Assembly: GCF_029255125.1 (NCBI RefSeq)
Contig: NZ_JAPUVR010000066.1
Coordinates: forward strand, 1-34,537
Length of the DNA: 34,537 nucleotides
DNA from: Accumulibacter sp.
Lineage (GTDB): Bacteria; Pseudomonadota; Gammaproteobacteria; Burkholderiales; Rhodocyclaceae
Direction: 5' to 3'
How positions within the stretch are numbered: the stretch's first letter is position 1; each line of letters opens with the position of its first letter. Under the pieces are notes generated by a model. The model was not told the DNA's origin. It was given only the letters and a program-made list of their open reading frames with translations, and made no database searches. The position numbers were made by a program, and so were the translations under genes. Of the stretch, positions 30,172-34,537 are shown piece after piece.

Positions 30172-31057
30172 GGCAAGCCGCGAACTGCGCACGCTGCGCG
30201 ACCTGATGCGCTTTGCCGTCAGCCGCTTCAACGAGGCCGGTGTGTTCTTTGGACATGGCAGCGACAACGCCTGGGACGAAGCCGCCTACCTGCTGCTGCA
30301 TTGCCTGCACCTGCCGCTCGACCGCCTGGAGCCCTTTCTCGACGCCCGCCTGACGCGCAGCGAACGCACCCAATGCGTGCAACTGATCGCTCGCCGGATC
30401 GGCGAGCGGCTGCCCGCCGCGTACCTCACCAACGAAGCCTGGTTGGGCGAGTATCGCTTCTACGTGGACCGGCGTGTCATCGTTCCCCGCTCGTTCATCG
30501 GCGAACTGCTGCGCGAGCGCCTGACACCGTGGATCGCTGAACCCGATGAAATCACCAGCGTGCTCGACCTGTGCACCGGGTCGGCCTGCCTGGCGATCAT
30601 CGCCGCGCACGTCTTTCCGGCCGCACTGGTCGATGCCGTAGACGTTTCAGCCGACGCGCTCGCCGTCGCCCGGCGCAACGTCACCGATCACGCGCTGGAC
30701 GAGCGCGTCCGGCTGATCGAATCCGACCTCTTCGCTGGCCTGCGCGGCCGACGCTACGACCTGATCGTGAGCAATCCGCCCTACGTCGATGCCGCGACGA
30801 TGGCCACGCTGCCTGCTGAATACCGCTGCGAACCCGAACTGGCGCTGGCCAGCGGCGTCGACGGACTCGATCTGACGCGCGCCATCATCGCCCAGGCGCG
30901 CCGACACCTCGCACCGCACGGACTGCTCATCGTCGAGATTGGCCACAATCGCGACACGCTGGAAGCCGCCTTCCCCGACCTCCCATTCACCTGGCTGGAA
31001 ACGAGCGCGGGCGATCGCTACGTCTTCCTCCTGCAGCACGAGGATCTGCCCCAATGA
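30164..31057 (+). CDS. prmB: Ribosomal protein L3 N5-glutamine methyltransferase PrmB
   Basis: 297 residues. It methylates a glutamine of ribosomal protein L3 with S-adenosylmethionine. The SAM loop [13 protein letters not shown] is at 133-145 and the catalytic NPPY at 204-207. [10 protein letters not shown] near 107 distinguishes PrmB from the related PrmC, which has VPRPETE-type residues there. The start ATG lies inside the last codons of dapE (8-base overlap), and its stop overlaps the pepN start (ATGA), so dapE, prmB and pepN are probably translated in series. Confidence 0.95.
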
Positions 31058-33723
31058 CGACGCCAGCGATAAAGCGGGTCCGGCGCGAGGACTACGCTCC
31101 ACCGCCTTTCCTGGTCGACCAGGTCGCCCTGGAACTCGATTTCCGGTCCGGCGAAGTCATCGTCGACAGCCAACTGCACCTGCGGCGGAACCCGGCGGCG
31201 GCTCCCGGACAGGCGCTGCAGCTCGACGGGTATGGCCTGCAGACGATTTCGCTGACGCTCGACGGCGTGCCGCTGAGCGCGGACCGCTACACCTGTAGCG
31301 ACACGCTGCTGTGCATCGCCGAGGTTGCCGATCGCCTGACGCTGAGCACGCGCACGCGCATCGACGCCGATCACAACAGCAGTCTGTCGGGCCTCTACCG
31401 GTCGCAGAACGGCTACTTCACCCAGTGCGAGGCGCAAGGCTTTCGCCGCATCACCTGGTTTCCCGACCGCCCGGACGTCATGTCGACCTACAGCGTGACC
31501 TTGCATGCCGACCGGGAAAACCTGCCGGTCCTCCTGGCGAACGGCAACCCGGTCGGCAGCGGCGAACACGGCGATGGTCGGCACTGGGCAAAATGGCACG
31601 ACCCTTTCCCCAAGCCGTGCTACCTCTTCGCCGTCGTCGCCGCACGCCTCGATGTGCTGCGCGACGACTTCGTCACCGCCGACGGTCGCCGCGTGCAATT
31701 GGCGCTCTATGTCGAGCCGGGCAAGAGCGACCAGTGTGCGCACGCGCTCGACGCACTCAAGCGCGCGATGCGTTGGGATGAGCAGGTCTTCGGTCTCACC
31801 TGCGACCTCGACCACTACATGATCGTCGCCGTCAGCGACTTCAACATGGGCGCGATGGAGAACAAGGGGCTGAATATCTTCAACACAAAGTACGTCCTTG
31901 CCCGCCCGGATACGGCCACCGATGTGGACTATGAAAACGTCGACCGCGTCGTCGCGCACGAGTACTTTCACAACTGGACCGGCAACCGCGTCACCTGCCG
32001 CGACTGGTTCCAGTTGTCCCTCAAGGAAGGGCTGACCGTTTTCCGCGACCAGGAATTCACCGCCGACACGCACAATCGCGCACTCGCCCGCATCCGCGAC
32101 GTGCGCACGCTGCGCGCCGTACAGTTCCCCGAGGACGCTGGACCGATGGCACATCCGGTGCGACCCGAGGCCTACGTCGAGATCAACAACTTCTACACCA
32201 GCACCGTCTATGAAAAGGGTGCCGAGGTCGTGCGCATGATCCACACGCTGCTCGGCGAAGCGGGCTTTCGCCGTGGCATGGACCTGTATTTCGCGCGCCA
32301 CGACGGCCAGGCGGTGACCTGTGACGACTTCGTCGCCGCGATGGCCAATGCCAGCGGCGTAGACCTGCAGCAGTTCATGCGCTGGTACGACCACGCAGGT
32401 ACGCCGCGCATCCGGGTGCGCGGCGATTACGACGCCGAACAGCGGCGCTATGTGCTTGCCCTGACGCAGGAGCGCCCGAGCGCGCCAGCTACGGCGGCGT
32501 CCGACCTGCCCTTCCATATCCCGGTCGCCGTCGGCCTGTGCGGAAGCGATGGGCACGACCTGCCGCTCGTCCTTGCCGCCGAGCTGGCCGGCCACAGCGC
32601 GAACGGACAACCGGCCGCGGCGCCGACGACACGCGTCCTGTCGCTTACCGAACGCCACCAGGAATTCGTTTTCCTGGCCGTCGACGCGGCGCCCGTCCCT
32701 TCGCTGCTGCGCAACTTCTCGGCCCCAGTCATCGTCGAGTATGCCTGGCGTGATGAAGAGTTGACCCATTTGCTCGCCTACGACAGCGACCCCTTCAACC
32801 GTTGGGAAGCGGGTCAACGCCTGACCAGCCGACTGATCCTGGCCGCCACGGCCGAACTGACGCAAGGTCGACCGGTGCGCTGGCCAGAGAGCATCGCGCG
32901 CGCGCTGGCACGCGTCCTCGAACTCGCAGAATCCGACCCGGCGTTTGCCGCCGAAACGCTGACCCTGCCAGGCGAGGCTACGCTCGCCGAAGAAATGGCA
33001 GTTGTCGACCCGGCGGCACTGCACGCTGCGCGCAATGGATTGCGCTGCTTCCTTGCCGAGCAGATGGCCCGGCAACTGGAACAGTGTTACGCCAGCCTGA
33101 GCGCGACGGGCGGCTACCAAGCAACGCCCAGCGCCGCCGGCCGGCGAGCGCTGCGCAACGTCTGCCTGAGCTATCTCGGCGAACTGCGCACGCAGGAAAC
33201 CCGTACCCGCGCGTTCGCCCAATTCGTGTCGGCCGACAACATGACCGACCAGTTCGCTGCCCTGGCCGTCCTCGCCCAGGACGACTGCGCGGAGCGCGGA
33301 CGCGCGCTGACTGCTTTCTACGAGCGCTGGCAGAACGAAGCGCTGGTCGTCGACAAGTGGCTGGCGGTACAGGCGGCAAGCCGCCTACCCGAGACGCTGG
33401 CGGTGGTTCAGCGGCTGCTCGAGCACCCAGCCTTCGAGCGGCACAACCCGAACAAAGTCTATGCGCTGCTTAACACTTTCGGCAACAACCACGTCCGCTT
33501 CCACGCCGCCGACGGCAGCGCCTACCGCTTCCTGGCCGAGCAAATTGGCGAGATCGATCAGTTCAACCCACAGGTCGCCGCCCGCCTGGCACGCCGCTTC
33601 GACCGCTGGCGCCGGTTTACCGCGGAACATCAGCAGCACGCGCAAGACGCACTCACCGGGCTGCTGACCATGCGCAGGCTATCGCCCGACGTCGGCGAGG
33701 TCGTTGAGCGCGCGCTGGCCTAA
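31054..33723 (+). CDS. pepN: Aminopeptidase N (M1 family)
   Basis: 889 residues, full length. A cytoplasmic zinc aminopeptidase that removes N-terminal residues from peptides. The substrate-gripping GAMEN is at 266-270, the zinc motif HEYFH at 302-306 and the third ligand E325 in SLKEGLTVF. The N-terminal beta domain, catalytic domain, small beta domain and helical C-terminal domain are all covered, with no break. It is the E. coli PepN type rather than the animal or actinobacterial type, judged by length and the C-terminal FNPQVAARLARRFDRWRRF block. It starts with a four-base overlap after prmB and ends the gene cluster; what follows is non-coding and decayed. Confidence 0.97.
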   Translation: MTTPAIKRVRREDYAPPPFLVDQVALELDFRSGEVIVDSQLHLRRNPAAAPGQALQLDGYGLQTISLTLDGVPLSADRYTCSDTLLCIAEVADRLTLSTRTRIDADHNSSLSGLYRSQNGYFTQCEAQGFRRITWFPDRPDVMSTYSVTLHADRENLPVLLANGNPVGSGEHGDGRHWAKWHDPFPKPCYLFAVVAARLDVLRDDFVTADGRRVQLALYVEPGKSDQCAHALDALKRAMRWDEQVFGLTCDLDHYMIVAVSDFNMGAMENKGLNIFNTKYVLARPDTATDVDYENVDRVVAHEYFHNWTGNRVTCRDWFQLSLKEGLTVFRDQEFTADTHNRALARIRDVRTLRAVQFPEDAGPMAHPVRPEAYVEINNFYTSTVYEKGAEVVRMIHTLLGEAGFRRGMDLYFARHDGQAVTCDDFVAAMANASGVDLQQFMRWYDHAGTPRIRVRGDYDAEQRRYVLALTQERPSAPATAASDLPFHIPVAVGLCGSDGHDLPLVLAAELAGHSANGQPAAAPTTRVLSLTERHQEFVFLAVDAAPVPSLLRNFSAPVIVEYAWRDEELTHLLAYDSDPFNRWEAGQRLTSRLILAATAELTQGRPVRWPESIARALARVLELAESDPAFAAETLTLPGEATLAEEMAVVDPAALHAARNGLRCFLAEQMARQLEQCYASLSATGGYQATPSAAGRRALRNVCLSYLGELRTQETRTRAFAQFVSADNMTDQFAALAVLAQDDCAERGRALTAFYERWQNEALVVDKWLAVQAASRLPETLAVVQRLLEHPAFERHNPNKVYALLNTFGNNHVRFHAADGSAYRFLAEQIGEIDQFNPQVAARLARRFDRWRRFTAEHQQHAQDALTGLLTMRRLSPDVGEVVERALA

Positions 33724-34112
33724 CGGGCAGGGACCCCGCGCCGAGTACACCCGGGCCATGCACCCTGGCATCCATGGCCTGCACACAAACAACTGGCCTG
33801 GCGTCAGGGATGACATTAGCGCGATTCGACCGTCGCCCCGAGCCGGAAAAGGTGTTTGCGGTCTCTCGGGCACGCGCTTGACCTGCGGCCGATGTTTCGT
33901 CACCAGGAGCATGGCACGAACGCCCGCTCGTTCCTGAGCGTGCTTGCCAACCGGTAAGCGTGGATCCAGTGGGAAAAGCCCGAGCCCGCCTCTCACGCCA
34001 TCGTGACCGCGCCCTTGCTTACTGCATGGCGCACGTTCGGCTGGATGGCGGCGGCATGGAAGCCAAATGACGGGAAGGCCAGTTGCGAAAGTGAACTAGC
34101 CCCTTGGCTTCA
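33724..34112. other. Gene-poor, apparently decayed stretch after pepN
   Basis: About 390 bases without an intact gene. An open frame at 33704-33937 overlaps the pepN end and has no ribosome binding site or family resemblance. The only recognisable content is a short segment that reads like a transposase fragment (33844-33957). No terminator with a T-run is evident after pepN. Confidence 0.6.
33844..33957 (+). pseudogene. Possible remnant of an IS1634/IS4-type transposase
   Basis: One frame reads CLRSLGHALDLRPMF then RHQEHGTNARSFLSVLANR and a stop. This resembles the conserved RSLK-x-LGLRPVYH...HLFISVLAY block near the C-terminus of IS1634-group transposases. Neither the upstream catalytic part nor the downstream end is present, and no terminal inverted repeats were found. 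The fragment is short, so the resemblance could be coincidental. Confidence 0.35.
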
Positions 34113-34162
34113 TGGTGCCGCTGGACGGAATCGAACTGTCGACCTACGCATTACGAATGCGT
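34113..34162 (-). tRNA. 3' part of tRNA-Thr(CGT), displaced attachment-site fragment
   Basis: On the minus strand the sequence folds as the last 50 bases of a tRNA: anticodon stem ACGCA/TGCGT with loop TTCGTAA (anticodon CGT, threonine), variable loop AGGTC, T arm with loop TTCGATT, acceptor strand CAGCGGC, A and CCA. The 5' acceptor GCCGCTG, D arm and start are missing; homology stops at the anticodon stem. The T stem has one A-C mismatch (GACAG/CCGTC), as expected in a copy no longer under selection. An integrase gene follows 165 bases away, so this is best read as an attachment-site remnant left by integration. Confidence 0.85.
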
Positions 34163-34191
34163 GAGCAGGGGCAAACCTACGCATTAACGAA
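34142..34191. repeat. Direct repeat of the tRNA-Thr core at the element edge
   Basis: ACCTACGCATTACGAA (34142-34157), which is the anticodon loop, anticodon stem and part of the variable loop of the tRNA fragment, recurs as ACCTACGCATTAACGAA (34175-34191) with one extra A. The copies are 33 bases apart. The second copy is outside the tRNA fragment, on the element side. Confidence 0.8.
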
Positions 34192-34241
34192 CCTTAATAA
34201 TGATTGACGGAGCAGTATGTTAGCCCTACACTGACCTTAAC

Positions 34242-34297
34242 GGGGTTACACCAAAGTCGATCGTTTTTGACCCGAAACGTAACCCCGGCGTAACCCC
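34242..34297. repeat. GTAACCCC repeats upstream of the integrase gene
   Basis: GTAACCCCGG occurs at 34279-34288 and 34290-34299, one helical turn (11 bases) apart, and again inside the integrase gene at 34444-34453. GGGGTTAC at 34242-34249 is an inverted copy of the core. Repeats in such phase near an integrase are typical of arm-type integrase, excisionase or repressor binding sites. They also overlap the likely integrase promoter. Confidence 0.6.
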
Positions 34298-34326
34298 GGG
34301 GAAGACTAAATGCATAAGGTCACGTC

Positions 34327-34537
34327 ATGAGCGCTGCATCGAGGTTCCAGTTCAACAAAGAGCGAATCCTTGCCCTGCCTGCTTCTGCGGCTGGCACGCG
34401 GGCGACTTATCGCGACACGAAGACACCGGGCCTACAGCTTCGCGTAACCCCGGCAGGCGTGAAAACCTTTTCCATGTACCGGCGCACCAAGGGCGGCGGT
34501 CCGGAACGCGTGACCTTGGGTCGCTTCCCTGCCATGA
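34327..34537 (+). CDS. int: Tyrosine-type integrase, N-terminal part, cut by the window end
   Basis: The frame is open from ATG 34327 to the last base, giving 70 residues. After a short lead (SAASRFQFNKERILALP) comes the N-terminal arm DNA-binding domain (DUF4102 type) of P4-like tyrosine recombinases: YRDTKTPGLQLRVTPAG at about 27-43, then KTFSMYRRTKGGG and VTLGRFPAM. AAGG lies seven bases before the start. Such integrases insert phages and genomic islands into tRNA genes, matching the tRNA-Thr fragment alongside. The catalytic domain with its Arg-His-Arg-Tyr residues is outside the window, so intactness is unknown. Confidence 0.88.
   Translation, partial: MSAASRFQFNKERILALPASAAGTRATYRDTKTPGLQLRVTPAGVKTFSMYRRTKGGGPERVTLGRFPAM

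Follow-up and report, generated by a model that had tools for sequence, protein, structure and literature searches.

The right end of the stretch of Accumulibacter DNA analysed here (the window, 34,537 nucleotides, which is the entire contig C66 of genome G000, so that its right edge is the contig end) raises the question of what kind of element begins there, where its other end lies, and how its integrase would recognise the DNA on either side of the attachment site. The reading that we consider very probable as a whole is that an integrative element would have entered the 3' half of tRNA-Thr(CGT), with the right end of the window as its integrase-side (attR-type) junction and contig C140 as its other end, that its integrase would be lambda-Int-like, and that an arm module would be exchanged in the wider integrase family. 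The element itself is ordinary and of a known island type; the module exchange is the part that deserves follow-up.

The two probable ends of the element in the Accumulibacter genome

The features of the window that matter here are the following (int, integrase gene):
31054-33723, + strand: pepN-like aminopeptidase (M1) with Peptidase_M1 and DUF3458 domains, outside the element
34113-34162, - strand: displaced tRNA-Thr(CGT) 3' fragment (positions 27-76), 48/50 identical to the intact gene on C140
34142-34153, + strand: ACCTACGCATTA inside the core, an exact repeat with its second copy at 34175-34186
34191-34197 and 34234-34240: ACCTTAA, flanking the promoter-like site
34204-34232, + strand: TTGACG-17-TACACT, a promoter-like site for int lying between core and arm sites
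34242-34249, + strand: single inverted putative arm unit, GGGGTTAC
34279-34297, + strand: putative doubled arm site GTAACCCC-GGC-GTAACCCC, type A, the sole such pair in the window
34327-34537, + strand: start of the integrase gene (first 70 codons, encoding the arm domain), which runs into the contig end; PF13356, E 2.4e-5

The 50-base tRNA fragment reported in the first-pass annotation is real: it differs from the intact gene (C140:85866-85941, + strand) only at positions 27 and 43, and ARAGORN called no complete tRNA in the window. The P4-type integrase that the same annotation placed after the fragment, pointing away from it, was also confirmed, since it starts 164 bases past the fragment, reads away from it and carries a DUF4102 (P4/SXT-type) arm domain. 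This 70-residue piece, which is incomplete, scores 24.8 bits against PF13356 (Arm-DNA-bind_3; curated cut-off 27) and is 96% identical to residues 1-70 of the 410-residue integrase of the relative G003, which in turn lies above the cut-offs for PF00589, PF13356 (52.3 bits) and PF22022. Residues R242, K267, H335, R338, H361 and Y370, which we take to be the catalytic residues (RKHRH plus the tyrosine), are invariant in the integrases of 12 relatives. The remainder of the window integrase, that is its core-binding (CB) and catalytic (CAT) domains, was not found in the G000 assembly, from which the middle of the element with its cargo is missing as well. Contig C97, which opens (L027:1-120) with the C-terminal part of a tyrosine recombinase of integron-like appearance, was rejected as its continuation, given this appearance and the lack of any match between the G003 integrase and C97.

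A mismatch in the T stem of the fragment had been taken as an argument for a displaced copy. This argument was mistaken: A52-C62 is the sole T-stem mismatch in 18 of the 18 intact tRNA-Thr(CGT) genes examined, that of G000 included, and is therefore no sign of decay. When positions 33900-34537 were searched against their own genome, the only non-self matches were C140 (E 5.9e-17) and, weakly, the tRNA-Thr(GGT) of C100 (E 3.2e-4). The promoter-like site is the only such match in 33700-34537 (mean of 0.2 in shuffles). The ACCTACGCATTA repeat is perhaps a second core-type site, and repeats resembling it by eye also adjoin the fragment in relatives.

The proposal that the tRNA 3' end was displaced by an insertion and the tRNA restored at the far end is supported by the intact tRNA-Thr(CGT) matching the fragment, which is present on C140, another contig of the same genome. 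There, GGGGTTACGCCGGGGTTAC begins 45 bases past the last base of the tRNA, and the contig ends 2148 bases beyond the tRNA. Two small genes in this end are oriented towards the tRNA; two 98-residue products of the C140 end had no PHROG match and one of them, scanned with a longer start, had no Pfam match. C140 was also considered as an 85-kb element, a possibility that was discarded because its first 85.7 kb hold genes that look chromosomal by eye, an amidase-like gene (by eye) lying upstream of the tRNA, and only the 2148 bases after the tRNA remain.

G000 contains exactly two copies of GGGGTTAC-N3-GGGGTTAC, one before the window integrase and one 45 bases behind the intact tRNA-Thr(CGT), together with a single tRNA-Thr(CGT) fragment. 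Because they share the same tRNA and hold the only two copies of this doubled repeat in the genome, C66 and C140 would most simply, and probably, be the two ends of one element, which is presumably mobile. They could instead be the ends of two different type-A elements, left over from a tandem array or a chromosomal rearrangement, and relatives do offer such arrangements: a type-A tRNA-side repeat stands behind the fragment of a type-B element in G001:C64, a type-A repeat at the tRNA is combined with a GTAGGCA-type end at the fragment in G009:C11, and tRNA-Thr bears a type-A repeat in G016 and G009, yet the type-A integrases of these two genomes target other tRNAs. Moreover, of the 14 pepN loci read, only that of G000 has the fragment as its neighbour. 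Nevertheless, two type-A pairs and one fragment are just what a single element predicts, and we regard two separate elements as unlikely. No empty site was seen in the tRNA-Thr regions of 18 genus genomes, read for 150 bases.

In G000, the displaced fragment and the intact tRNA lie on separate contigs; in three relatives of the genus Candidatus Accumulibacter (G003, G021 and G022), the order fragment, int, element and tRNA is found on a single contig, so that the pairing of fragment and integrase to be sought in related genomes does occur there, as the far end of an element. The intact tRNA and the fragment enclose 20.7 kb in G021, 15.4 kb in G022 and only 2.2 kb in G003, where the stretch holds nothing but the integrase, DUF4160 and DUF2442 proteins and a 71-aa ORF. 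The DUF4160 and DUF2442 genes (L029:9353-9876) lie directly downstream of the G003 integrase and look like a small two-gene module linked to int, perhaps a toxin-antitoxin pair; the start of the DUF4160 protein is nearly identical in the type-A G003 and the type-B G021 and G001. Elements in tandem occur in G001:C64 and G015:C57, where the fragment belonging to one element is followed by a tRNA-side repeat of a different type. By eye, doubled GTGTACCC, GGGAACGAC, GTAGGCA and GGCTACA stand behind tRNA-Thr(CGT) or its fragment in L043, L015, L014, L040 and L029, and the tandem arrays at this tRNA mix doubled-motif types. More distant integrases were found in a Betaproteobacteria MAG, a Methylotenera MAG and Paraburkholderia solisilvae, and one scan of viral contigs gave no match to the G021 integrase.

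On the other side of the junction, pepN was found in 23 relatives and its end was read in 13, where it is followed by tRNA-Arg(ACG) in nine, by no tRNA in four and by tRNA-Thr in none. The idea of pepN as a former neighbour of tRNA-Thr is thus unsupported, and pepN may perhaps not be the ancestral neighbour of the element. The 389 bases between pepN and the fragment (33724-34112) have no similarity by eye to the pepN-downstream DNA of these 13 relatives, and include an imperfect hairpin immediately adjoining the fragment. Behind the tRNA-Arg(ACG) downstream of pepN (L045-L051, L053, L055 and L056), other doubled motifs are visible by eye in several relatives, for example pairs of GGTGACAC, TGTGCCCAA and GGGTACAAG, which apparently represent further arm types and a second island hotspot. 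In G009 (L055), this tRNA-Arg(ACG) has an internal partial duplication (by eye). In G010 (L082:8068-8364), a homolog of a C140-end gene (MNTEDL.../MRTEDL...) lies by eye just behind pepN and tRNA-Arg(ACG); similar islands would therefore have common end genes at different tRNAs.

Doubled repeats on both sides of the attachment site

The doubled repeats before the integrases can be grouped into types, initially called by eye (A, B and G), according to the unit that is repeated:
Type A: GTAACCCC, in pairs, period 11
Type B: GCTAGCCCG, in pairs, period 11
Type B': GTTAGCCC, in pairs, period 11
Type G: GGTAGCAA, in pairs, period 11; the unit of the pair is also given as GGTAGCAAT (L136)

Across 28 genus genomes, including G000, the type-A pattern GGGGTTAC-N3-GGGGTTAC occurs at 19 sites in 12 genomes (none with the reversed control), of which six lie before integrases of the family, ten behind intact tRNAs (four Thr, four Met, one Asn and one Cys, at a gap of 45-47 bases) and three behind tRNA 3' fragments, two of these three adjoining unrelated integrases. 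The B pattern gave seven sites in six of the 28 genomes (control 0), four before family integrases and three behind tRNAs; one tRNA-side B site is broken by Ns and was named by eye. In ten genomes of the order, GGGSTWRC-N3-GGGSTWRC gave 13 sites in six genomes (control 0): eight before family integrases (two of them overlapping), four behind the tRNA that the family integrase of that genome targets, and one unexplained. The latter (L172, G039:C1:62818-62836) is a type-A pair alongside which no tRNA was called; a weak tRNA-Thr-like match lies nearby at 62728-62773.

For 17 of the 24 integrases compared, the tRNA-side repeat was located at the target of the integrase itself, and its type equals that of the integrase side in all 17: type A in G000, G003, G015, G016, G017, G020, G043, L132, L141 and L144, type B in G001, G018, G021 and G022, type B' in L137 and L138, and type G in L136. 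The tRNA-side repeats of L144 and L136, each with one mismatch, were missed by the strict patterns and found by searching for the tRNA. Where measured, 44-48 bases separate the tRNA from the repeat. The other seven integrases of the set are those of G009, BetaRH, Methylotenera, Paraburkholderia, L134, L135 and L139. The two ends of the element lie on different contigs in G000, G001, G015, G020, G043 and G411, and the tRNA-side repeat of G411 may belong to another element, because an integrase remnant adjoins it.

Arm domains, tRNA targets and their exchange

The 24 integrases compared by domain comprise 15 from the genus search and a named collection and nine from a sample across the order, where 12 of the 399 genomes matched at E <= 1e-40. 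Partial homologs (L099, L100, L101, L113/L131 and L115), the distant L142 and L143, L140 (internal stop) and L145 (the same place as L141) were left out entirely, L133, with the same upstream sequence as L127, was counted once, and more distant integrases (about 24-32% identical) lie outside the analysis. The tRNA targets were read from the anticodon of the fragment; intact tRNAs called by ARAGORN bear out Thr(CGT), Thr(TGT), Met(CAT), Asn, Cys, Arg(CCT) and Arg(ACG), and Phe, Lys and the target of Methylotenera were assigned by eye.

Judging from these sequences, repeat type goes with the arm domain at the N-terminus, and the choice of tRNA goes mostly with the CB domain. Arm domains are 36-48% identical between types A and B, against 49-96% within A (the doubtful-A L139 aside) and 66-96% within B. 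Between A and G the identities (44-58%) overlap the within-A range, the two G arms being mutual nearest at 67%. CB domains are 81-91% identical among integrases targeting tRNA-Arg(CCT) and 26-43% identical between these and the rest. There are two exceptions on the target side, as two Thr(TGT) integrases share 40% CB identity, and G043 has the same target as G017, G015 and G009 at 57-58%. In G043 (C148, L124; tRNA-Met), the core half on the element side likewise differs by eye, and the CB domain and the core half-site may have changed together. The dissociation of the domains is most visible in single pairs:
G020 (A) and G018 (B), both tRNA-Asn: arm 46%, CB 94%, CAT 96%
G003 (A) and G021 (B), both tRNA-Thr: arm 46%, CB 86%, CAT 90%
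L144 (A) and L136 (G), both tRNA-Arg(CCT): arm 51%, CB 89%, CAT 80%
G020 (Asn) and G043 (Met): arm 96%, CB 51%, CAT 79%

Trees were built for the arm (22 integrases), CB (22) and CAT (21) domains, with G000 (70 residues) and L139 omitted from all of them and L141, which is split into two reading frames and was used for its first part only, omitted also from the CAT and CB+CAT trees. With B and B' pooled, arm type requires two changes on the arm tree (as few as three states allow), six on the CB tree and seven on the CAT tree, and the target requires 11, nine and nine changes, respectively. For AU tests, with groupings chosen after the identities were known, the arm data reject three of four target groupings (p 1e-6, 3.5e-5 and 0.0036) and do not reject that of G043 with G017, G015 and G009 (p 0.128), and the CB+CAT data reject all four arm-expected groupings (p 4e-25, 8e-5, 0.0004 and 0.0014).

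The Mantel and shuffle tests covered 22 integrases, without G000 and L139. The best pair of period 10-12 found de novo in each upstream region matches the type called by eye in 21 of 22, L138 being the one that disagrees, and beats shuffled upstream regions in 20 of 22 (matched or exceeded by no more than 7 of 300 shuffles), the pairs of G003 and L134 not being outstanding (67 and 68 of 300). If longer periods are allowed, period 21 is better than 11 in G021 and G001. In Mantel-type permutations, which remove shared ancestry only partly, the similarity of the arm units correlates with arm-domain identity when CAT and CB are held constant (r 0.53, p 5e-5), and not with CAT or CB when the arm is held constant (r -0.01, p 0.52; r -0.03, p 0.60). 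Sharing a target correlates with CB at constant CAT (r 0.34, p 5e-5), weakly with CAT at constant CB (r 0.13, p 0.03) and hardly with the arm at constant CB (r 0.11, p 0.06).

Such co-variation would also arise indirectly if the doubled repeats were bound by another protein of the element, such as an excision factor or a regulator; for the similar doubled motif of HE-PICI, the accessible text of PMC10111431 leaves binding by another protein open. However, the 2.2 kb of G003 offer only int, DUF4160, DUF2442 and the 71-aa ORF, repeat type follows the arm tree with two changes against six and seven on the others, and DUF4160 cannot set the repeat type, since its start is almost identical across types A and B. 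Binding by another protein is accordingly improbable.

How an exchange may have come about is seen in G018, which was compared with G020 and G021 over 373 informative DNA positions. It resembles G020 at the tRNA core (-230 to -171; 21 to 1), G021 from -110 to +249 (120 to 17) and again G020 from +310 to +1209 (156 to 33); the two intervening stretches (7 to 5 and 8 to 5) favour neither parent. By this pattern, the integrase of G018 clearly arose by recombination between two of the lineages sampled; the exchanged tract comprises the integrase-side arm sites together with the codons of the arm domain and stops close to codon 95, at the arm/core-binding boundary. Its tRNA-side repeat is of type B, that of G020 at the same tRNA species of type A. 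A less clean case is G043 compared with G017 and G020, with a G017-like core (21 to 3), a G020-like stretch from -50 to +129 (46 to 3) and a mixed, mostly G017-like remainder.

Arm sites and arm domain might change together merely as neighbours on the DNA, recombination carrying both without any functional need, and the integrase-side arm sites do lie within about 75 bases before the int start, inside the exchanged tract. This explanation is unlikely in view of the far arm sites, which are placed 44-48 bases behind the tRNA, at least 2.2 kb away when the element is integrated, and whose type agrees in 17 of 17 located cases, including G018, where it agrees although the core comes from the other lineage. 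Since CAT domains can be 96% identical with arm domains 46% identical and repeats that differ on both sides, and since G018 is a recombinant, the arm domain and the arm sites appear to behave as an exchangeable module. It is likely that two separately exchangeable modules exist, one formed by the arm domain and the arm sites of 11-bp period that flank attP, the other by the CB domain and the tRNA target, and that new integrases originate from the swap of a tract of about 400 bp (integrase-side arm sites plus arm codons up to the domain boundary) and a matching replacement of the far arm, with residues 37 and 49 as candidate specificity positions.

Proposed mechanism and relation to known systems

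In the proposed mechanism, the element would have carried its own tRNA 3' half into tRNA-Thr(CGT) and pushed the old 3' half to the integrase end; the tRNA gene would be intact at the far end, on C140, because the element brought this 3' half with it. The DUF4102 integrase would most likely act as lambda Int does, with the CB and CAT domains working on the core, which lies in the anticodon region; the doubled GTAACCCC on both sides would be bound by the N-terminal arm domain, which would so build the recombination complex. The arm domain may also repress its own promoter; negative autoregulation, as for KplE1 intS, is suggested by where the promoter-like site lies, namely between the core and the arm sites. 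In the wider family, the arm domain and arm sites would be exchanged as a module, apart from the core-binding/catalytic part.

Nine arm positions separate type A from type B (35, 37, 49, 60, 61, 63, 66, 83 and 86), and 37 and 49 carry a third residue in type G. In a model of the G003 integrase, which served only for residue placement (mean pLDDT 73, pTM 0.58, last 60 residues poor), strands 36-40 and 46-52 are predicted to contain positions 37 and 49, and strand 60-67 to contain 60-66. The nearest solved structures by sequence include chains that match over CB and CAT only, which we take to be lambda Int chains.

In lambda Int, HK022, phage 21 and e14, the arm domain serves the arm sites and the other domains serve the core, and relatives of lambda Int (HK022, 21/e14) are known that share one specificity and differ in the other. 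The present integrases differ from this group in belonging to another subgroup and in the several natural exchanges with matching changes on both sides of the core.

As far as the accessible part of PMC8138268 describes them, P4-type or IntSXT-subgroup (DUF4102) integrases and their tRNA islands are alike in the DUF4102 arm, CB and CAT domains and in insertion into the 3' part of a tRNA that is kept intact; here, in contrast, the integrase adjoins the displaced fragment, at the opposite end from the intact tRNA, and arm type varies among close relatives with the same target. HE-PICI attachment sites, in the accessible text of PMC10111431, likewise have a tandem motif with two copies in the same orientation on either side of the attP core, and binding by the arm domain is suggested there; they differ in integrase clade and motif, and in that text one motif and no exchange between integrase lineages is reported. 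In the KplE1 prophage, whose IntS acts at argW, the int promoter also overlaps the attachment region, with self-repression possible (PMC2951348, accessible part); autoregulation was measured there, whereas here it is suggested by a promoter-like match. Among the literature matches listed, none (e.g. the best 20 of 56 and the best 12 of 81) described an arm domain exchanged together with its arm sites, most subscription journals being outside the scope of the search, and none (e.g. the best 12 of 1,186) described Accumulibacter islands of the tRNA-Thr type.

The doubled sites may act as barcodes that pair island ends across broken assemblies. The natural integrase pairs G020/G018, G003/G021 and L144/L136 have most of the protein and the tRNA target in common and differ in arm domain and arm sites, and they therefore make it possible to ask which residues read the arm sites, how one tRNA hosts elements in tandem and how new specificities are gained. 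As a whole, this integrase family appears to resemble a natural mix-and-match kit, in which the parts that recognise DNA are exchanged separately.
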